Shown one piece after another: positions 3,235 through 18,632 of a stretch of 64,000 bases of DNA. The translations under genes were made by a program, and so were the position numbers. The notes below the pieces were generated by a model. The model did not search any database and was not told the DNA's origin. It worked only from the letters and a program-made list of their open reading frames with translations. The DNA is from Peloplasma aerotolerans (GTDB lineage: Bacteria; Bacillota_I; Bacilli_A; Acholeplasmatales; Acholeplasmataceae): positions 1 to 64,000 of the forward strand of contig NZ_JASCXW010000004.1 of NCBI RefSeq assembly GCF_030012175.1, in the 5' to 3' direction. How positions within the stretch are numbered: position 1 is the stretch's first letter; each line of letters starts with the position of its first letter.

Positions 3235-3669
3235 ATGAGTAAAGAACAAAGTTTAAGAACGTGGATCGAATCATTTAACAAAGGTGAATTCGACTCAAAA
3301 GATTTACAAACACAAATTAAAGCTGGTTGGTATGATTGGTTTTGTAAAGATGAAAGTCTAGCAAACAAAACTAAACGTATGGGAAACATCGTTAAACAAT
3401 TTAAAGATGGCGGAAAACTCAATCTTGATAACATGTATGTTTGGTTTAAAAATAACTGCCCACTTGCTGGACCACTTTATGATGATTTTAGAATAGCTGA
3501 TATAGAAACTGGTGATACCTTATTCACAATAACGATTAACCGTTTTAGAGAAGAGAAGCGGTATACAATCTATGGTAAAAGAAATGATTTTGATACACCA
3601 CTGTTTAGTGCCGAATCAATCAAAGAATTAGTCAATTGGTTTAATGAAGGGTGGCAGAACAATGTTTAA
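3235..3669 (+). CDS. Phage/mobile-element type hypothetical protein
   Basis: A 144-residue soluble protein without a recognised catalytic motif. It has aromatic-rich stretches (WYDWFCKD near residue 32; MYVWFKNNCP near 72) and a beta-rich second half (TLFTITINRF, RYTIYGK). The start is ATG at 3235 after AAGGAG. Its stop overlaps the next gene's start by 8 bases, so the two are translationally coupled. I recall similar proteins from Firmicutes phages and plasmids, but I cannot name a function. TATAAT at 3175-3180 is the likely -10 for the pair. Confidence 0.7.
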   Translation: MSKEQSLRTWIESFNKGEFDSKDLQTQIKAGWYDWFCKDESLANKTKRMGNIVKQFKDGGKLNLDNMYVWFKNNCPLAGPLYDDFRIADIETGDTLFTITINRFREEKRYTIYGKRNDFDTPLFSAESIKELVNWFNEGWQNNV

Positions 3670-4045
3670 AGAATTTAACGCGCATCCTAAAGGTATTAAA
3701 ACCACTGATTGCATGGTTAGAGCAATCTCAACTGCAACTAGAACAGATTACTTAGAAGCTAGAAGAGAACTTAATAGAAAGAAGAAAGAACTCGGTTTCT
3801 CGAGTTACAAAGATACACAGTTCTTATATAAATACTTAAGAGGTTATCCAAGACTGATATTTAAACCAGTTAAAGGTGAGCCGCGAATTAAAGGTAGTGA
3901 TTTTACGGAATTACATCCCAAAGGAACATACATCTTAAAAATGGCTGGTCATATTACAGCATGTATTGACGGAGTCATACTGGATACATGGGATTGTAGC
4001 TACCGTTCAGTATACACAGCATGGGAAATAAGTACAATCTTTTAA
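3662..4045 (+). CDS. Papain-like (Cys-His-Asp) phage-type protein
   Basis: A 127-residue protein with the layout of small papain-like cysteine peptidase or transglutaminase-fold phage proteins. An early TTDCMVRAIS carries the candidate nucleophile Cys, a later MAGHITACIDG carries the His, and ILDTWD carries the acidic residue. Start ATG 3662 follows GGGTGG inside the preceding gene; the longer in-frame ATG at 3644 has no ribosome binding site. It overlaps the 3235 gene by 8 bases, so the two form one operon. The catalytic role is inferred from the triad spacing only; the substrate is unknown. Confidence 0.65.
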   Translation: MFKEFNAHPKGIKTTDCMVRAISTATRTDYLEARRELNRKKKELGFSSYKDTQFLYKYLRGYPRLIFKPVKGEPRIKGSDFTELHPKGTYILKMAGHITACIDGVILDTWDCSYRSVYTAWEISTIF

Positions 4046-4086
4046 TAAAAATTCTAAAAACGATTTATTTTATATATCATTTTTGG

Positions 4087-4092
4087 TATAGT
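4087..4092 (+). promoter_or_regulatory. Putative promoter -10 of the PIN/HEPN/FRG cassette
   Basis: TATAGT followed by TATATAA, with a weak AT-rich -35 (TTTATT near 4064). Transcription would start near 4099, just before the terminator-like hairpin at 4107. Confidence 0.4.
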
Positions 4093-4106
4093 ATATATAA
4101 ACACAC

Positions 4107-4146
4107 ACCAAATGCTGAACATTAAGTATTTGGTTTATTTTTTTAT
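4107..4146 (+). terminator. Terminator-like hairpin (possible attenuator) before the cassette
   Basis: ACCAAAT (4107-4113) pairs with ATTTGGT (4128-4134), followed by TTATTTTTTT. It lies between the putative promoter at 4087 and the ribosome binding site GGGAGGG at 4149. It can end the upstream 3235-4045 operon, act as a leader attenuator for the cassette, or both. Confidence 0.6.
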
Positions 4147-4160
4147 ATGGGAGGGTTAAT

Positions 4161-6005
4161 GTGAATAAATTAGATTTGATAAGAGTTGGTGCGCTGTTAC
4201 ATAATATTGAAGATAGCACATCATTTAATCTTGTTTTAAAGAAACTAATTGATTATACTTTTGCTACAAAAAACTCAAGTTACTTATCTGTTAATCAAAT
4301 AATTGATTACCTATCAAGCGATGACGGTGTTTGTATGTCATTTAGTCAAACTGAGATTTTAGACTGCTGTAATGAGTTCAATACTATTTACTCAGCAAAT
4401 GGTAATAAAGATCTTGAGAATATTTTAATTTCAGATAATTATCTAGAAGAAATAAAAGGCAAAATTGACGCAATTGGATTAGATATAATGATTGAAAGGT
4501 TTTACACTGAAATTCTAGATAAGAAAAAGAAAAAATTGTATAAACTTGATAAAATATCAGAAGCCATTTATTTATTTCTATATAATGTGCTAATAGAAAG
4601 CGAAATCGAATACAGTAAACTTTTTTCTATTGATCTAGTTGAAGTTGGCCGTATAGTTAGAAAAGTAGAGTATGCTGATATTGTAAATGATTTCATACAA
4701 TGGGAAGATGAACAAAAAAACAATATTTTATATTCTCTATATGGAGCTGGACTGGAGTTTTCTATTTTAAGCGTAAAAAAGGATTTAGTTAACTTAAATG
4801 CATTTAAAAACAAAACACTATATTTAGATACAAATGTCTTGTTTAGGTTAATTGGTTTGAATGGAGAAGATTTGGCTAATAGAACAGAAGGTTTTTTAAA
4901 GAGATTTAAAAAGCTAGGCATGATTATAAAAATTTCAACTCTAACAAAAAAAGAATTTGATGATACCATAAAGCAAAAAATCGCTTTTATAGTTGAAAAC
5001 ATGCAGCACTCTAACAAATATACTATTAACAGTTTTGAAAGACTTGATAGGGATAATTACAGTATTTTCCAATATTATTTGGATTGGAAGAAGAATAAAC
5101 CCGGAGCAAGAATTACTAGTTTGTCAACATATATAAACGCACTCTTAAAAAAGACAATTTCGAAGTTTGATATCAATTTAGAAGCAAAATTTGATAAATC
5201 ATTGATATCAGATGAAGAACTTAACACTCAAATAAATTCGTATAAAAAGTTAAGATATCATAATAGGAAAACAGAAAAACTTATTGAAAATGATATAAAA
5301 AATTATTGCTATATGCTAGCCTTAAGAAAAAATATTGAAATTAAAGATTTTTCTAATGTTGATTACTATTTATTAACAATTGACTACGAGTTAATTCATT
5401 TTGATAATAATAGTAAAGAAAATTTCAGAGTGGTTTTTCATCCAGCAAGACTATATTCAATAATTTTAAGATTTGGCGGAAGAATAACGACTACAGAACT
5501 TATGAGCTTTATTAGGATGTTAAAAGTTGATATAAAAACCGAAGAACGTTTATCAGAAATTACTAGATTAATTATCAATGATCATTTGAACTTTTATGAA
5601 TCTGATGAAAGTTTACAACAGCCTTATATAGACGCACTTATTGAAAGTCAAATGCTTGATCAAATTGATAGTGCTGATATAACAGAAAAAAGACGTATGA
5701 TCAATGAAATTTTCGAGACAGTATCCAAAGCCAAAGTTATCGCTGCTGAAAAAGAAATAGAAGAGAAGGATCAGAAAATAGATGATTTGACTAATAAATT
5801 AATTAAATATGAAAAAAGAAATCTATTGTTAAAAAAATCTGGTATTGTTTTGATAAAGCTCATAATTTCTATAGCGGTATTTTATGCCTTATATAAGATA
5901 TCATACTTATTTTTAGATGAGAGTGTTAGTGTGGCATTGTCGTCAGCTATATCTTTAATAGGATTTATAGTATTTATTTTCCCTAAAAAAAATAAGAATG
6001 TTTAA
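4161..6005 (+). CDS. Membrane-anchored PIN-domain nuclease
   Basis: A protein of about 614 residues with three parts. The N-terminal 210 residues are helical and unrecognised. A PIN-like ribonuclease domain spans about 218-410, with an acidic set typical of the fold: Asp223 in LYLDTNVLFRL, Glu265 in TKKEF, Asp378 in ENDIKNYCYMLA, and Asp401/Asp408 in VDYYLLTID. A coiled coil (about 525-555) leads to two hydrophobic helices (about 560-582 and 588-606), so the nuclease should sit at the membrane facing the cytosol. GTG at 4161 is the start, after GGGAGGG; the overlapping ATG reads straight into TGA. It is first of three co-directional genes with HEPN and FRG proteins, a context suggesting RNA-targeting defence. 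The PIN call is firm; the defence role is inference. Confidence 0.75.
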   Translation: MNKLDLIRVGALLHNIEDSTSFNLVLKKLIDYTFATKNSSYLSVNQIIDYLSSDDGVCMSFSQTEILDCCNEFNTIYSANGNKDLENILISDNYLEEIKGKIDAIGLDIMIERFYTEILDKKKKKLYKLDKISEAIYLFLYNVLIESEIEYSKLFSIDLVEVGRIVRKVEYADIVNDFIQWEDEQKNNILYSLYGAGLEFSILSVKKDLVNLNAFKNKTLYLDTNVLFRLIGLNGEDLANRTEGFLKRFKKLGMIIKISTLTKKEFDDTIKQKIAFIVENMQHSNKYTINSFERLDRDNYSIFQYYLDWKKNKPGARITSLSTYINALLKKTISKFDINLEAKFDKSLISDEELNTQINSYKKLRYHNRKTEKLIENDIKNYCYMLALRKNIEIKDFSNVDYYLLTIDYELIHFDNNSKENFRVVFHPARLYSIILRFGGRITTTELMSFIRMLKVDIKTEERLSEITRLIINDHLNFYESDESLQQPYIDALIESQMLDQIDSADITEKRRMINEIFETVSKAKVIAAEKEIEEKDQKIDDLTNKLIKYEKRNLLLKKSGIVLIKLIISIAVFYALYKISYLFLDESVSVALSSAISLIGFIVFIFPKKNKNV

Positions 6006-6044
6006 ACAGACTTTTAATAAAATGATTAAAGTTGGTGATTTACT

Positions 6045-7214
6045 ATGATTAGAATTGGAAATATGAACATTAACATTTCAGATTTTAGAATAGCAATATT
6101 ATTTTTTTTAAAGAAAAAGTCCCATATTACTTATTCTAGTGATATAGAAATCGAAAATTTAACTTGGTCAGTAAAAACGTTCAAAGATAATTATGCAATT
6201 TGTGCCACAACAAATGGATCCAAAAAAAGTAAAAAAGCATATTACGAATCCGGTTACAAAGCAATTCAAAGATTTCTTGACGTAGTTTGTTTAATAAAAA
6301 AGCCTGCTATGTCAATTGATTATGACACCAAAGAACAAGTGTCATTTTATATGATTAATACGCCAGAACACAGATCTTTAGAAATATATTCCAGAGATTA
6401 TCTTAAATTTGATGCAAACATAGAATTTGAGATTAGAGATTTAGATGGCAATTTAATTGAATCTAAAATTGAAGCAACATACTATCCTGCAGTGAGATAT
6501 CTTAGAATGTCTCAGTTATCTGATAGCCTACTTGATGCATATAGATATCTTTTTTTATCAGTTGAATCCGCTATTAATGTTTATAGTCCACACACAAAAA
6601 ATAAAGAAAATGAATGGTTTGGAGATGTCCTTGAACATGCAAACATTAAGTCAAAGAATCCGTTGGTTTATTCAGAGGGAATAAAGAAACATTTTATAAA
6701 AAATCACTATACTAAAATAAGGAATAAATTGTTCCATTCAAAAGGAAAAATGATACTACCTTTTGATAATTATGACATGAGCATGTTGTATGATGCATAT
6801 ATAGATTTATTTGATATTTGTGCTATGATATTTGAGGTGCATTTTAATCAAAACATCAGAGGTGGCTTTTCGATTAGTGAATCTGTAATCAAATCCTCCA
6901 TTGAAGGAATTAAATTAGACGAAATTAATTTTTCTGAAAAAAATGTTAAAAGCAATATGGAAGTTTTAAAACTCAAAAATATTGAACAACCATTAGCTGA
7001 AGGGTACAGTGGAAAATTAAAGATAAAACTGAAAGTGATTGATCAGGATAAAAATCTGGCATTTGACAAATATGAACTCAACTATAAGGGAAACCCTCAA
7101 ATTTATTATGAATTTAAAGAATTAGTTGTAATAAATGGACTAAATTCTATACTAATCAACCATAGTGTGTTTTTTACAAATAGAAACATAATTGATAGGC
7201 CGTTTTTATGGTAA
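6045..7214 (+). CDS. HEPN-domain protein
   Basis: A 389-residue protein. A helical segment around 155-245 contains KIRNKLFHSKG, which gives Arg226-x4-His231. This is the RX4-6H signature of HEPN ribonucleases, and it is preceded by a long helix (LLDAYRYLFLSVESAINVY) as in other HEPN folds. The N-terminal 150 residues and the beta-rich C-terminal 130 are unrecognised and may sense a trigger. HEPN proteins commonly cleave RNA as toxins or abortive-infection effectors. The start ATG follows GGTGAT; the gap to the PIN gene is 39 bases and to the FRG gene 24 bases, so the three form one operon. An in-frame ATG at 6063 is an alternative. Confidence 0.65.
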   Translation: MIRIGNMNINISDFRIAILFFLKKKSHITYSSDIEIENLTWSVKTFKDNYAICATTNGSKKSKKAYYESGYKAIQRFLDVVCLIKKPAMSIDYDTKEQVSFYMINTPEHRSLEIYSRDYLKFDANIEFEIRDLDGNLIESKIEATYYPAVRYLRMSQLSDSLLDAYRYLFLSVESAINVYSPHTKNKENEWFGDVLEHANIKSKNPLVYSEGIKKHFIKNHYTKIRNKLFHSKGKMILPFDNYDMSMLYDAYIDLFDICAMIFEVHFNQNIRGGFSISESVIKSSIEGIKLDEINFSEKNVKSNMEVLKLKNIEQPLAEGYSGKLKIKLKVIDQDKNLAFDKYELNYKGNPQIYYEFKELVVINGLNSILINHSVFFTNRNIIDRPFLW

Positions 7215-7238
7215 GTATCATAAGCAAGGAGATGTCAT

Positions 7239-8417
7239 ATGATATCAAAAAGTGAATTTATGAATATTCTGAAACATTTAAAAACCGATTTGAAAAAGAC
7301 TTTTGCTGCTAATTTCGTGTTAGATAAGTTTAAGGAATCAGAAATCAAAGATAATAAAACTGCTTTTAATTTAAATAAATACTACTTTAATTACATCGAT
7401 CAAATTTCTAAAAATCTAATTGATGAATGTAGAAAAACTTTAAATGATGATGACGATGAAAGTAAAGAAATTTATAGTACGATGCATAAACTTCTAGATA
7501 CCAATAATGATGAGTTAAGAATGCTGATGAGATCTTTTGAGAGTAATGAAACAAGTAATCGACAAATTAAACAAAGACTGTTATGGATTCATACAGTCTC
7601 TATAATTAACGATGCAATTAAATTTAGAAAATTATCATACAAAGAATATCAAAGTTACGGTATGAATAACGAATTAAGAAATACTCTAAATACGAACCAG
7701 TGGTTTCGTGGACAAACAAACTATGAATGGGAGTTAACCCCAAGTTTTTTTAGAAATATAGATAAGAACATTATCGATATTGATTATAATTTTCTTGTTA
7801 AGAAATATGATGGATATGGATTAACTAATAAATATAATAATATATTCGGTATGAAAACAAGTATATATTCAAGATTTGCGTATTATCAGCATTCCGTAGC
7901 CTATAGTCCGTTCCTAGACTTTACTGAAAAAGAAATAGTGGCTAAATCATTTGCTATTTCTAACAAGAGTAATATATCTGATTATAATTTGAACGATTCT
8001 GCTTTTTATAAAATCGAGGTTTATGATGATGAAGTAATTAAAGACGAATATCAAGCAGATAAAATAATACAAGATTACAATGTTCTTTTAATTAATGACA
8101 AAATTTATGCATCCTCACTATTAAAACATCAGTTATGGTTGGATTTTATTAGTAGCCAAAGTGCCGGGAAGATATATCTAATTGATATTAAAACAAATGA
8201 TAGAATGAAATATCAAAAAGGTGTATTTACTCTATTTGATAATTTTATTATCGTTGGGAATAAATTACTATTGCCAAGCCATATAGTTGATCGGTTTGTT
8301 AAGGTTCGAATCACTTTAAAAGATAAGCAAGACATAAGAAATTTATTAGCTAATTCAAAAAATGAAGCATATCAATATATTTATATGATGAATCCATATG
8401 AGTATTTTGCTAGTTAA
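7239..8417 (+). CDS. FRG-domain protein
   Basis: A 392-residue protein. Residues 1-125 are helical and charged. An FRG domain begins near 150: NQWFRGQTNYEWELTPSFFR contains the defining FRG at 156-158, and AYYQHSVAYSPFLDFTE (214-230) matches the second conserved block (QH...LLDxT). FRG domains are uncharacterised but resemble ADP-ribosyltransferase-like folds and are frequent near phage-defence genes. Start ATG follows AAGGAGATG. The stop overlaps the convergent recombinase stop by four bases. As the third cassette member it could be an effector or a modifier of the PIN and HEPN nucleases; that role is inference. Confidence 0.7.
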   Translation: MISKSEFMNILKHLKTDLKKTFAANFVLDKFKESEIKDNKTAFNLNKYYFNYIDQISKNLIDECRKTLNDDDDESKEIYSTMHKLLDTNNDELRMLMRSFESNETSNRQIKQRLLWIHTVSIINDAIKFRKLSYKEYQSYGMNNELRNTLNTNQWFRGQTNYEWELTPSFFRNIDKNIIDIDYNFLVKKYDGYGLTNKYNNIFGMKTSIYSRFAYYQHSVAYSPFLDFTEKEIVAKSFAISNKSNISDYNLNDSAFYKIEVYDDEVIKDEYQADKIIQDYNVLLINDKIYASSLLKHQLWLDFISSQSAGKIYLIDIKTNDRMKYQKGVFTLFDNFIIVGNKLLLPSHIVDRFVKVRITLKDKQDIRNLLANSKNEAYQYIYMMNPYEYFAS

Positions 8418-10045
8418 AGTATTACTATCTTCCAATCAAACTGCCTAGATTGATGCATTTTACAATCACCTTCTAGCAATGGCTTTTCTGTCATTGCTTT
8501 TTTAATTTTATATGGTGATACCATATCACCAGTTGCATTAATCACTAACACATAGTTTTGTTCATCAACTCTAACAAGCTGTTTAACATAACTTAGAAGC
8601 ATCTCAGGTGTTAATGAATCTAAAGGATATTCAAATGATTGAATCCTTTGTTTAAGATTTTTTGCATGTCTTAATGTATGATCATGCTTGATCTTTTCAT
8701 CTTCAATATTAATATAATCAATACTGAATTTAATTATCTCATCTTCCAAATCTTTAAGCATCGCAAGCTCAGCTGCATCTCTATGATCTTTTCTTTTTAA
8801 TGTGTAATATTTATCTTTATAGGTCTTAATGATATAACCTATGTTATTTAGTTGTTCATCTATCTTATCTATAGACAATAACTGCTGAACACGTTTGTCA
8901 AACTTTGGTTCTAAGTCGCTAAATTTGCGACCTAAGGCGTTTAAACTTCGTTTGAGAATGTGGATAACCGTTTTACTCATACTCTTTGGAAAATGGGGAT
9001 TATTTAAATACTTAGGATCAAGCATATTATCGATCATCTCAATACCCTTATCAAGAGGTCTATAATATGTTTTATAACTATCTAAATCAAAAACAAAGTC
9101 ACTTAGTACATTTGGTATACTTGTATTTTTATCATAGGTCCTTTTTTCTTTGATCATTAATGATTGAACATTTTGAAACGTATCATGATCAATCATAGCT
9201 TCATGATGATTTCTTATGACGTATTTCGGTTTATCGCCATCATTGATGATAGTTCTTTTTCCATGTCCATCATGTTTCATATATGTTTTACCATATTCAA
9301 TAGTACCGGTATATCTAATATCTTTTAAGATACTATTAATTTGTTGATAAGTAGTAATCGGATATCCTTTAGTTGATTTTAAATCTTGTGACTTTGCGTA
9401 GGCTATGAGTTCAGACATTTCTGATCCATTAAGTTTCATCTTAAACAAAGTCTGAATGATGTGAGTTATCTTAGGCATAGGTTTATATTGTTTATCTTCA
9501 GTGATAGCATAACCAAGAAGTTTATGAAGTACAACTTGTCCTTTTTGTGCGCGCTTTTGAAATCCCCAACTAATGTTTTGTCCCATGGATTGTGATTCTT
9601 GTTCAGCCATACCTGACATCATCGATAAAATCATATCAACAGTAGTATCTGAACTATAGATACCCTCTTTTTCAAAGTAGAACTCAACACCTAATCTTCG
9701 TGTTTCTTGAATGATTTTAAGTGAATCTACAGTATTTCTAGCAAACCTCGATAAAGACTTAACTAAAACTAAATCAATATGTCCTGCTCTAATTTTTTTC
9801 AGTAATTTTTGCAGGCCATCTCTTTTATCCATGGATCTTCCTGATTTGCCATGGTCCGCATAAATGCCTGCAAAGATATAATTAGGATTAAAAATAATTT
9901 CTTTGGCATAATGTTTAATTTGTAAATCAATCGATGATTGTTGCATTTCTAGTTTTGTTGAAACGCGCGCATAAGCTGCAACGCGTTTCAATCTTGTTTG
10001 TGCATATTTAACGCTATTTTTTTCTATGACTTTAATTTCCTTCAT
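8414..10045 (-). CDS. Large serine recombinase (no zinc ribbon)
   Basis: A 543-residue large serine recombinase. The N-terminal resolvase domain has AAYARVST with nucleophile Ser29 and the conserved LVLVKSLSRFARN helix. The Recombinase domain follows (about 170-300), and a helical coiled-coil region fills the C-terminal half. The zinc-ribbon Cys cluster seen in its partner is absent, because the frame goes straight from the Recombinase domain (KRTYDKNTS) to a helical region. The start at 10045 has GAGGTGAC upstream inside the end of the partner gene; the two overlap by 14 bases and are co-translated. The pair probably acts together to excise or integrate this island. Confidence 0.85.
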   Translation of the reverse strand: MKEIKVIEKNSVKYAQTRLKRVAAYARVSTKLEMQQSSIDLQIKHYAKEIIFNPNYIFAGIYADHGKSGRSMDKRDGLQKLLKKIRAGHIDLVLVKSLSRFARNTVDSLKIIQETRRLGVEFYFEKEGIYSSDTTVDMILSMMSGMAEQESQSMGQNISWGFQKRAQKGQVVLHKLLGYAITEDKQYKPMPKITHIIQTLFKMKLNGSEMSELIAYAKSQDLKSTKGYPITTYQQINSILKDIRYTGTIEYGKTYMKHDGHGKRTIINDGDKPKYVIRNHHEAMIDHDTFQNVQSLMIKEKRTYDKNTSIPNVLSDFVFDLDSYKTYYRPLDKGIEMIDNMLDPKYLNNPHFPKSMSKTVIHILKRSLNALGRKFSDLEPKFDKRVQQLLSIDKIDEQLNNIGYIIKTYKDKYYTLKRKDHRDAAELAMLKDLEDEIIKFSIDYINIEDEKIKHDHTLRHAKNLKQRIQSFEYPLDSLTPEMLLSYVKQLVRVDEQNYVLVINATGDMVSPYKIKKAMTEKPLLEGDCKMHQSRQFDWKIVIL

Positions 10046-11729
10046 GGATTGTCACCTCGTAGTATATGTTTTCTTTTGTTTTGTAATCAAAATATGTGCC
10101 TTCTAAAATAGAAGGTCTTTTCTTTATCGTATCGATTTGATGATGTAAGTCATCAATGGTTGAGAATGTATCGTCAATTACGTATCTCACATGATTTTTA
10201 CCCATCATAAGAACTAAACCAAAGAAACTCTTTATGATGGTTAAATCTTGAAAGTTCGTTTGTATAAACGATTCTAATGCATAATAACGTCTACGCATAA
10301 GGTGTTCCTTTTTGATTTGATTGGTTAGGTTTTCTATGTTTCGTTCGGTTTCTTTTAAATTTTGTTCTAAACGCTTGAATTCATTTTTATATTCTAAGTC
10401 CGTCATATTACTGTGAAGCTGGTTTTTAGAAAGTGCTTTAATCTGATTACCGATTTCAACATTTTCTTGTTTGAGTGCTTTTAATGGTTCATGTGAATTG
10501 GTTTGTTCTAAAGTTTCTTTCATATAATCCATAATCGATTTTTGCATATCTTTGGTTTGTGTAAGTCTTTCAATGACATGAAGTGTTGCACGTTCTAATA
10601 AAGGTTCATGTATGGATGGATTATCACAGTCATGAGGGTTATTTCTTGAGGTATGACATTTAAGCATACTCTTTTTAAATGTTGTTCCTGAATTGTGCAT
10701 CTTAGAATTATAGATACGGTGACATCTAGAACAGTAGACCAAACCTTTCATTGGCTTTTGTGCAAGATGCTTAAACCTTTCTTTAGAGTCTTCAGCTAAA
10801 ATCACATCTCTTGCATGAATCATCGTTTGGACGATATCAAATGTTTCACGATTAATGATGGGTTCATGTGCATTTTTAATATAGTATTTCGTTGCATGGC
10901 CATCATTGATCACGGCTTGATGCGTTAAATAATCAATGGTCACTGTTTTTTGAAGCATCAAATCGCCAGCATACTTCTCATTCATCAATATTTCTTTAAC
11001 GGTATCTGCATACCAGTTCACGCGACCTAATCCATTTTTTATTTTTTCATCAGTTAAATGTCTAGCAAGACTTGTAACACTCATACCATTTAGATACTTA
11101 TGAAAGATGTATCTTACCGTTTTAGCTTGTTCCTCGTTGATGATTAAGGTACCTTCTGTATCTTTGTCATATCCTAAGAAGCGGTTAGTATTCATGATGA
11201 GCTTGCCTTGTTCAAAACGTTTTTGAATGCCCCATTTGGTGTTTTCGCTAATCGATCTTGATTCCTCTTGAGCCATAGAAGACATAACCGTTAGAATAAA
11301 ATCGATCTTTGGGTCTAGAGAAGATAAGTTTTCTTTTTCAAAATAAATCTCAACATCAATATTTCGTAAGGTTTGTATGACTGTCAGGATATCAATAGTA
11401 TTACGTGAAAATCTTGAGATGGATTTTGTTAAAATCAAATCAATATGTCTATCTTCAGCTGCTTGAATCATACTTAAGAATCCTGGTCTTTTGCTCATCA
11501 TCGTTCCCGTGATGCCTTCATCACAGTACATGCCTGCAAATTCCCATTCATCATTTTTGTTAATTCTTTGTGTGAACTCTTCAATTTGTGCTTGATAACT
11601 ATGAAGCTGGTCTGTTTCATCCGTAGATACTCTGGCATAAGCAGCTACTTTTTTCTTTCTAATGACTTGATTGGTGATAAAGTCTTTATATTTAGGTTTT
11701 GGTTCGATAATTTCTACAATTTGTCTCAT
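10032..11729 (-). CDS. Large serine recombinase (with zinc ribbon)
   Basis: A 565-residue protein. The resolvase domain has AAYARVST with nucleophile Ser35 and LILTKSISRFSRN. The Recombinase domain spans about 185-300. A zinc ribbon has CSRC near residue 334 and a second Cys/His group in the following 30 residues (KCHTS, HDC). A coiled coil covers about 400-490. Such proteins join attP and attB without sequence homology and direct phage or ICE integration. It starts at 11729 after AGGAGG and is the first gene of the two-recombinase operon. The two proteins share domain layout but differ strongly outside the catalytic core, as in the paired recombinases of some SCC-like elements; co-requirement is inferred. 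Confidence 0.88.
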   Translation of the reverse strand: MRQIVEIIEPKPKYKDFITNQVIRKKKVAAYARVSTDETDQLHSYQAQIEEFTQRINKNDEWEFAGMYCDEGITGTMMSKRPGFLSMIQAAEDRHIDLILTKSISRFSRNTIDILTVIQTLRNIDVEIYFEKENLSSLDPKIDFILTVMSSMAQEESRSISENTKWGIQKRFEQGKLIMNTNRFLGYDKDTEGTLIINEEQAKTVRYIFHKYLNGMSVTSLARHLTDEKIKNGLGRVNWYADTVKEILMNEKYAGDLMLQKTVTIDYLTHQAVINDGHATKYYIKNAHEPIINRETFDIVQTMIHARDVILAEDSKERFKHLAQKPMKGLVYCSRCHRIYNSKMHNSGTTFKKSMLKCHTSRNNPHDCDNPSIHEPLLERATLHVIERLTQTKDMQKSIMDYMKETLEQTNSHEPLKALKQENVEIGNQIKALSKNQLHSNMTDLEYKNEFKRLEQNLKETERNIENLTNQIKKEHLMRRRYYALESFIQTNFQDLTIIKSFFGLVLMMGKNHVRYVIDDTFSTIDDLHHQIDTIKKRPSILEGTYFDYKTKENIYYEVTIHEGN

Positions 11730-16691: not shown

Positions 16692-17632
16692 ATGATAAAA
16701 ATACATCCTTTAGAAAGTTTAATAGAACAATATCTTGAAGAAAAAGATATTTCACAAGGGACCAAAGAAGTCTATTTGACCATACTCAACCAGTACTTAA
16801 GTTATCTAAAGCACATCAAATCTTCTATGCGACAACTCAAAATGTGATTAGTTTTAGGGCATATAGCAGAAATAGAGGGTGCTCAACACGTTGGATTTAT
16901 CATCAGATTACCGTGCTTAAAGGACTATACCAATATTTAAGTTTAAATCAAGCTCGTTTAAACTTACCTGAAGCATATGCTCATAATATTATGGCACCCA
17001 TAAAAAATGAAAAGATAGAAAAAAGAACGACTAAACCTATCTTAACACCTGAACAAGCTAAACAACTGCTCTTAAGTCTTAAAGATCACCGAAGATGTAG
17101 TTGGCATTTTCGTGATTATGCGATGATATATCTCATGGTCACGACAGGACTAAGAAGTATTGAGGTTAGAAGGGCAAAAATAAAAGATCTTAAAATCATC
17201 CAGGATAAAAGAATCTTATATATACAAGGCAAAGGAAGAAGTTCAAAAGATGAATTTGTAAAGATATCAAAGGGCGTAAACGAGGCAATTGAGGATTATT
17301 TAAAGATAAGAAAAGATCAAAGTCCATATCTATTTGCTTCTAGGGCTAAACGGTCAAAAAAACCACTGACTAGAACCATCTTTATTAGTATCTTTAAACG
17401 GGCATTAAATGATGCTGGACTTGAAAGTATCCATATGACTGCGCACTGTTTAAGGCATACCGCCGCGACTTTTAACATAAAAAGAGGCGGAACTCTAAAA
17501 GAAACGAAACGACTACTTAGACATCAAAGCATGTCAAATACATTAATTTATACGCATCATATCGATAACATAAAAGATGAGACAGTATCTGATCTTGAAG
17601 ATTTTATTTTTAGTCAGGAAAAAAATAAATGA
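16692..17632 (+). pseudogene. Frameshifted tyrosine recombinase
   Basis: The natural start is ATG 16692 (GGAG seven bases upstream), opening with IHPLE like its paralogues. The frame stops at TGA 16845-16847. A one-base loss near 16806-16812 explains this: the alternate frame from there reads HQIFYATTQNVISFRAY and continues unbroken to 17632. The catalytic set is intact in the downstream part: TTGLRS, GKGRS, HCLRH, LLRH and LIYTHH. Initiation at GTG 16844 would give 262 residues lacking most of the core-binding domain. It is 16 bases upstream of a third paralogue. No standard slippery site is present, so mutation is more likely than programmed frameshifting. Confidence 0.75.
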
Positions 17633-17648: not shown

Positions 17649-18632
17649 ATGATTGATCATCCACTCAAAAAACTAAGTGAACATTATTTAAATGAACAAG
17701 ACTTATCCAAATCGACCATCAAAACATATCGAATTTGCTATAAATATTATCTGATGTATTTGATAGAACATGATATCTTATATGCGAAAACAAGTGATGT
17801 CATACGCTTTCGAGAAAGTTTGAGAAAAAGAGGTCATTCGACCTATTATATTCATACTTATATCTGCGCACTTAAAAGCTTATATCGCTATTTACGAGAA
17901 AACCAACATAGGTTGAGTTTTCCAACTGAATATACCTATGACATTATGTTAGCTGTCAAAAACGAAAAAATTAAACCGCATCTTAAAAAGCCTTTATTAA
18001 ACCTTGATGAAGCTAAACATTTATTAATCTATACAAAAGAGCATCGGAAAATCATTTATGATTACAGAAATTATGCCATCATTGCACTTATGATTACGGC
18101 TGGTTTAAGTTCACATGAGATCATTCATCTAAAAAAAGTAGATTATCAAATGATAGATGATCATCATGTGCTTCTGATAGAAAAAAATGGCACACGTCAC
18201 AAAGATACGGTTTATTTGTCAAAAGGCGTGGTTGAGGCAATTGATGATTATTTAATTAAAAGAAGAAAAAAAGAAAATCCCTATTTGTTTATCTCACAAA
18301 ACCAAACAACTCCAGAAGGTTATCTTTCTAGAACATTCTTTTATTACATGTTTGAAAAAGTAATAAAGAAATGTGGGTTAGAACATACTAATATTACACC
18401 ACACTCTTTAAGACATACAGCGGCCTATCTCAATCTTTTAAGAGGTGGCTCCATTGAAAGCACCAAACGGCTTTTAAGACATGTTGATATTAAGTCTACA
18501 CTTGTCTATGTAGATTACATCGACAAGTTAAATGATCACACCGCAGAATCGATTGAGTCCTTCATTTTAAAAGAAGATTTCTTTAATCATGATGATGTTG
18601 ATTTTTTCAATCATTTTTTTAAAGTATACTAA
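17649..18632 (+). CDS. Tyrosine recombinase with altered catalytic Arg
   Basis: A 327-residue paralogue of the recombinases at 13628 and 16692. The domain layout is preserved, with His252-x2-Arg255, His278 and Tyr287 in place. The first catalytic Arg, found in GLR of both paralogues, is Ser154 here (TAGLSSHE). Loss of this Arg normally abolishes strand cleavage, so the protein is probably a DNA-binding partner or decaying. It has an extra Asp/Phe-rich tail of about 20 residues. ATG 17649 follows AAGGTGG. Confidence 0.8.
   Translation: MIDHPLKKLSEHYLNEQDLSKSTIKTYRICYKYYLMYLIEHDILYAKTSDVIRFRESLRKRGHSTYYIHTYICALKSLYRYLRENQHRLSFPTEYTYDIMLAVKNEKIKPHLKKPLLNLDEAKHLLIYTKEHRKIIYDYRNYAIIALMITAGLSSHEIIHLKKVDYQMIDDHHVLLIEKNGTRHKDTVYLSKGVVEAIDDYLIKRRKKENPYLFISQNQTTPEGYLSRTFFYYMFEKVIKKCGLEHTNITPHSLRHTAAYLNLLRGGSIESTKRLLRHVDIKSTLVYVDYIDKLNDHTAESIESFILKEDFFNHDDVDFFNHFFKVY

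Follow-up and report, generated by a model that had tools for sequence, protein, structure and literature searches.

We describe in Peloplasma aerotolerans a compact three-gene operon that encodes a predicted membrane-tethered PIN-type RNase, a candidate HEPN-type RNase and an FRG-domain protein of the ADP-ribosyltransferase (ART) superfamily, and that is probably a phage-defence cassette. It lies near the start of the window, by which we mean the whole stretch of 64,000 nucleotides that was analysed, within cargo of a prophage-type element. The strongest evidence for defence is the position of the cassette, which is independent of any domain call: in a close relative, known anti-phage genes occupy the corresponding slot next to the same recombinases, and a probable defence role follows from this. 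The kinds of domain are known and their combination is undescribed.

Organization of the predicted operon

The three co-directional genes (Table 1) lie 39 and 24 bp apart and, as read from their open reading frames, encode products of 614, 389 and 392 aa, the first from a GTG start codon; in 50 shuffles of the cassette region the longest ORF was 135 aa. The layout, both gaps and the presence of the residues named in an earlier sequence-only reading of this DNA were all reproduced exactly. The promoter-like stretch of the leader includes an extended -10-like element, TGGTATAGT, at about 4084-4092, called by eye only. It is followed by a hairpin of 10 pairs with a U-tract, detected by the terminator scan, that ends ~25 bases 5' of the gene 1 start, and the leader RNA folds with -13.6 kcal/mol (z=-2.84). 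This hairpin could be an attenuator of the cassette or the terminator of the preceding gene. The region holds 5 terminator-like sites by the same scan, against 0.9 expected. The trio is bracketed exactly by the leader hairpin and the 3' hairpin, with no internal terminator on the + strand, and we infer that it is transcribed as one unit. Neither the leader nor the operon has a match in Rfam.

Table 1. Positions of the cassette, its predicted control elements and its flanking genes in the window
Feature	Position	Strand	Description
Two prophage genes upstream	3235..4045	+	144 aa; 133 aa = phrog_3754, E=2.2e-32
Operon leader	4045..4160	+	Promoter-like stretch, hairpin 4107-4134 with U-tract, GGGAGGG ribosome site
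Gene 1, predicted PIN-type nuclease	4161..6005	+	~200-aa helical N-domain, PIN core ~215-460, coiled-coil linker, two C-terminal membrane helices
Gene 2, HEPN-type RNase candidate	6045..7214	+	Putative HEPN helices ~150-265, R226-x4-H231, putative flanking beta-rich N- and C-terminal domains
Gene 3, FRG-domain (ART-superfamily) protein	7239..8417	+	F156-R157-G158, Q217-H218...L-D227-F, N320-D-R-M...Q326-x-G328-x-F330
Large serine recombinase 1	8414..10045	-	Resolvase PF00239 9.4e-32, Recombinase PF07508
Intrinsic-terminator-like hairpin	8475..8498	+	9 pairs and U-tract; inside antisense 3' end of recombinase gene; closes operon
Large serine recombinase 2	10032..11729	-	Resolvase 1.6e-31, Recombinase 2.9e-21, Zn ribbon

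The three proteins

The FRG protein is the most firmly assigned of the three. It matches Pfam PF08867 over residues 154-245 (E=2.9e-11; 44.5 bits, cut-off 25) and the PADLOC candidate PDC-S15 (E=4.9e-11). Among the FRG proteins fetched, five are related to the window protein over its full length (26-31% identity) and one more is split by a stop; in the six-member full-length alignment R157, G158, Q217, H218, D227, N320, D321, Q326, G328 and F330 are invariant. The FRG domain seen in the sequence-only reading is thus borne out, both by Pfam above its cut-off and by the conserved (F/Y)RG, QH...D and second-half core motifs. The description of FRG domains as uncharacterised is out of date, since they have been assigned to the ART superfamily as predicted NADase or signal-generating effectors (PMC9503650). 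We predict that the window protein uses NAD, either as an NADase or in ADP-ribosyl transfer.

The product of gene 1 missed every library cut-off, with no match in Pfam, NCBIfam, PADLOC or PDB. Its relatives comprise a protein from one Bacilli-type genome (G078), whose gene is interrupted, and proteins from two Hymenobacter plasmids. In a three-way alignment of the window protein with the G078 protein and a Hymenobacter plasmid protein, at about 22% identity, D223, E265, D378 and D408 are invariant and follow the PIN order D...E...D...D. Because these positions were named beforehand and about a tenth of the columns in the PIN core are invariant, we estimate the chance of joint invariance of the quartet at ~1e-4. 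D401, proposed together with D408 for the last acidic position, is K in both relatives, and hence only 408 stands. Hydropathy places hydrophobic C-terminal helices at about 562-580 and 589-607; two such segments are present in the window protein and in G078, and one was scored in Hymenobacter. The Hymenobacter match spans the N-terminal helical domain and the start of the PIN core (residues 3-277, E=2e-12), which indicates that the architecture of the whole protein is conserved. At the level of profiles and folds, the Hymenobacter relative has a sub-threshold match to PIN_12 at the same spot (E=0.094), and hhalign against PIN_12 members aligned LDTN...E correctly at a non-significant score (E=0.029, probability 1.7%). 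Two further genomes, G149 and G195, gave weak PIN-profile matches of ~90 residues (E 9e-5 to 9e-4), and an AlphaFold2 model from two-sequence input was too low in confidence for use (pLDDT 39). The proposal of a PIN nuclease with two membrane helices is therefore upheld for the helices and for the acidic quartet, but not for D401, nor by a profile or fold match.

The product of gene 2 has the sequence R226-N-K-L-F-H231, in which R226 and H231 are invariant with its single relative, a Rhodococcus plasmid protein (E=7e-10 over residues 132-233). The sole library hint is MauJ (PF17419), whose whole profile aligns across the HEPN region at E=0.015; hhalign against HEPN_Apea members gave no significant match. 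The HEPN helices and the beta-rich N-domain appear only in a low-confidence, single-sequence AlphaFold2 model whose pLDDT of 30 is too low for use. Weak matches of the HEPN protein in three other loci (L005-L007) we take as chance, as they involve residues 275-366 only, in ~980-aa proteins, at E of about 1e-4 to 1e-3. The R-x4-H motif on which the HEPN call had been based is present and kept in the Rhodococcus relative, but the protein falls below library cut-offs and is confirmed by neither profile nor fold. Since profile and fold statistics do not back them, the names PIN and HEPN are used here at the level of motifs: gene 1 is predicted to encode a membrane-tethered PIN-type RNase, and the product of gene 2 is a candidate HEPN-type RNase.

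A variable cargo slot behind serine recombinases

The gene for serine recombinase 1 stands tail to tail with the FRG gene, and their stop codons overlap. Beyond the two serine recombinases comes a gene for an HTH protein of repressor type; the divergent side has genes for a small HTH protein, a tyrosine recombinase and a Lin1244-type protein. The view of this region as a recombinase-rich island proved correct, with the two large serine recombinases directly downstream of the cassette and three tyrosine recombinases further on. Two adjacent tyrosine recombinases (16844-17632 and 17649-18632) lie ahead of genes for a MarR-type regulator and for a sugar transferase of bacterial type; the segment 16844-20124 is perhaps a recombinase-controlled polysaccharide locus.

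The same recombinase-side gene set is present in a genome of the same genus (G490) and in one of the same family (G124). In G490, recombinases 1 and 2 are 49% and 74% identical to those of the window. Immediately behind recombinase 1, and with stop codons that overlap as they do here, the slot contains a 284-aa gene and a DRT8-type reverse transcriptase (3.7e-114; L096:6442-9913), together with genes for a SecB/PD-T4-9_C protein and an MqsA antitoxin. In G124 the slot contents are a RelB antitoxin and a pRiA4 ORF-3-like gene, with a PDC-S01 candidate gene ~3 kb further along. On the other side of the cassette, both upstream prophage genes are neighbours in a G490 prophage as well, flanked by a ParB-methylase gene on one side and by terminase and portal genes on the other; the latter side also has SAM-synthetase-like and HNH-like genes, named from sequence only. 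The cassette thus sits in a cargo slot whose contents vary between prophage-type elements and, in relatives, comprise defence or toxin-antitoxin genes. A 38% relative of the 284-aa DRT8 neighbour lies directly beside an FRG gene in another genome (G045, L053:5125-6012, 3e-34), and in Rhizobium Drt2 is followed by an FRG gene; FRG and DRT parts are thus combined in other loci as well.

Two AbiEi-type genes occur 2-4 kb upstream of the cassette on the - strand, at 276-965 and 1626-2412 (PADLOC, 1.7e-38 and 4.8e-20). The second is interrupted, leaving the fragments 1626-2018 and 2173-2412. Ahead of each copy stands a 161-nt repeat (1232-1392 and 2703-2863, 73%), which suggests a duplicated unit; any AbiEii partner would fall beyond the contig start.

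Relatives of the trio and their neighbours

Does the trio recur? It was found once only. Searches at class and phylum level and of plasmids, phages and viral contigs, which covered mainly one bacterial class with low-sensitivity pattern scans beyond it, recovered no second example; a genome-contig scan of limited sensitivity gave no co-occurrence, and scans of viral contigs with the PIN, HEPN and FRG proteins or their alignments gave no match. An FRG gene is present in 30 of 247 genomes of the same class. The ORFs within up to ~7 kb of 29 other FRG genes, on both sides, included no match to the PIN or HEPN proteins or profiles; in this 29-locus set the profiles matched only the PIN gene of G078 and a weak ORF of G195, neither of which is an FRG locus. 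Recurrence, the test by which the sequence-only reading was prepared to be refuted, is thus unsupported.

Each of the three proteins has relatives in other company. Those of the PIN protein stand alone or with P63C, without HEPN and FRG partners. On one Hymenobacter plasmid (L009:2307-6530) an HTH-M78 gene (PD-Lambda-2_B-like, 1.6e-18), a P63C gene and a PIN-TM gene are found with Qat genes alongside; on another (L013:3916-8157) a P63C gene is followed by PIN-TM, with TIR, SIR2 and Piwi-domain genes alongside. The Hymenobacter arrangement of P63C and PIN-TM is possibly an unnamed cassette in its own right. The Rhodococcus relative of the HEPN protein is alone among conjugation genes.

The FRG relatives are the most varied. 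A gene of the same subfamily stands beside a NERD-helicase (PADLOC RTasNERD-Hel 5e-88) and another relative beside a DUF4116 repeat protein, and these different partners indicate that FRG is modular. Other members of the subfamily have no obvious partner (L063, L073), so FRG may need none. In G245 (L061:4620-7744) a stop-split FRG gene is followed by a 141-aa HEPN-like protein with the motif RNHWAH and by an AbiH gene (5.6e-18), and in G109 (L059:6542-9720) the FRG gene lies 3' of an ASCH-like gene and of a 621-aa protein that combines an ASCH-like N-terminus with a PIN-like LLDTNIII motif. FRG genes thus adjoin RNase-like genes in more than one locus, in unrelated forms. A single human-gut 'phage' scaffold carries an FRG relative, with neither PIN nor HEPN genes nearby; because the surrounding genes are of bacterial housekeeping type (ClpC-like), the scaffold is probably bacterial DNA. 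In G202 (L070:4936-7750) a NERD-helicase gene and an FRG gene are ~25 bases apart and adjoin McrBC-like genes; the two may form a two-gene unit.

Discussion

Our analysis revealed a three-gene operon in a slot that relatives fill with other cargo. We propose the following model, in which the RNase and NAD chemistries, the triggering by phage and the joint action of the three proteins are all inferred. Infection by a phage would trigger the cassette, and the three effectors would stop the infected cell. The FRG protein, with its predicted ART fold, would consume NAD or transfer NAD-derived ADP-ribose to a target; the HEPN protein would cut RNA independently of metal, and the PIN protein would cut RNA in a metal-dependent manner at the membrane. 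Such double cutting of RNA would be hard for a phage to repair. Sensing of the phage we assign, as an assumption, to the poorly conserved extra domains, namely the helical N-domains of the PIN and FRG proteins and the beta-rich flanks of the HEPN protein. A bolder version, to which we give only a slender chance, has the FRG protein make from NAD a diffusible ADP-ribose-type signal that activates the cytosolic HEPN and the membrane PIN RNases; if true, this would be a new signalling defence system.

How far does the evidence carry the model? The idea that the three act as one unit draws support only from the operon structure (spacing, leader and terminator), and none from recurrence; the idea of a defence role is strengthened by the slot. 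That the trio is a single three-effector abortive-infection cassette, carried as cargo of a prophage element and acting jointly, is a tentative reading to which we give slightly less than an even chance. A rather unlikely but still substantial alternative is that two or three independent defence genes are stacked in one cargo slot, with the FRG or the PIN protein working alone. The different or missing partners of the FRG relatives, the PIN relatives alone or with P63C and the solitary HEPN relative on a plasmid would all fit such stacking, and defence cargo slots commonly carry several unrelated systems, as G490 does with DRT8 plus SecB/MqsA. The tight same-strand spacing and the single leader hairpin and single terminator around exactly the trio, with no internal + strand terminator, argue for one unit instead. 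A defence role of some kind, whether of a joint cassette or of stacked effectors, we consider likely.

Two readings outside defence deserve consideration. The cassette could be an addiction module, similar to toxin-antitoxin systems, by which the prophage element is retained in the cell, with the FRG or HEPN protein as toxin and another protein as neutraliser. Its place on a mobile element beside recombinases, the antitoxin genes (RelB, MqsA) that occupy the same slot in relatives and a leader hairpin that could limit expression are in keeping with this; yet all three proteins look like enzymes, they are far larger than typical toxin-antitoxin parts and the operon has no small DNA-binding antitoxin, so that we judge an addiction module unlikely. 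Still less probable, in our estimate, is that these are prophage genes that serve some other end, for example to exclude superinfecting phages at the membrane or to regulate the element, and that the nuclease-like proteins are degenerate. The membrane helices of the PIN protein, the flanking prophage genes and the position of PIN and HEPN under all library thresholds would agree with degenerate proteins, whereas the retention of catalytic residues across very distant relatives, the intact FRG core and the defence genes that neighbour the relatives speak against them.

How does the cassette compare with known systems? The window FRG protein resembles the FRG/ART predicted NADase effectors (PF08867; PDC-S15) in its core, in being a large two-part protein and in having defence genes as neighbours. 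Unlike it, those relatives pair with a NERD-helicase, DUF4116, DRT2, a DRT8-partner-like protein or nothing, and in the loci examined never with this PIN or HEPN protein. Loci that join a HEPN RNase to another RNase have been described as making multiple RNA cuts that defeat RNA repair by the phage (Anantharaman et al. 2013, PMC3710099). The present operon shares with those abortive-infection cassettes a HEPN-type protein plus another RNase-type protein in one locus; it differs in that the second predicted RNase is membrane-tethered, an FRG enzyme is added and the HEPN protein matches no named HEPN family. The PIN RNase systems DS-3 and DS-5 (DefensePredictor) have been validated in phage defence, where the PIN RNase is essential and no classical antitoxin is involved, a trait that the trio would share (PMC13092281). 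DS-3 is one protein, however, and DS-5 has a DUF5830/AcrIF4-like partner; the trio is set apart from both by description, not by sequence. Closest in its PIN protein is the Hymenobacter L009 cassette, where a homologue with the N-domain, PIN core and C-terminal hydrophobic segment lies in a defence island, but there it stands with a peptidase-type regulator and P63C rather than with HEPN and FRG. The literature searched, which takes in only part of the subscription papers, describes no PIN/HEPN/FRG system, and its single match names the terms separately; the suggestion that this combination is not a named system holds in that literature.

FRG domains occur widely in this bacterial class, yet how they act is unproven, and an FRG protein encoded with two different predicted RNases in a compact operon offers a testable setting for it. 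The recombinase slot itself, which swaps DRT8, toxin-antitoxin genes and this cassette among related elements, would repay a search for further systems in a little-studied group of bacteria.
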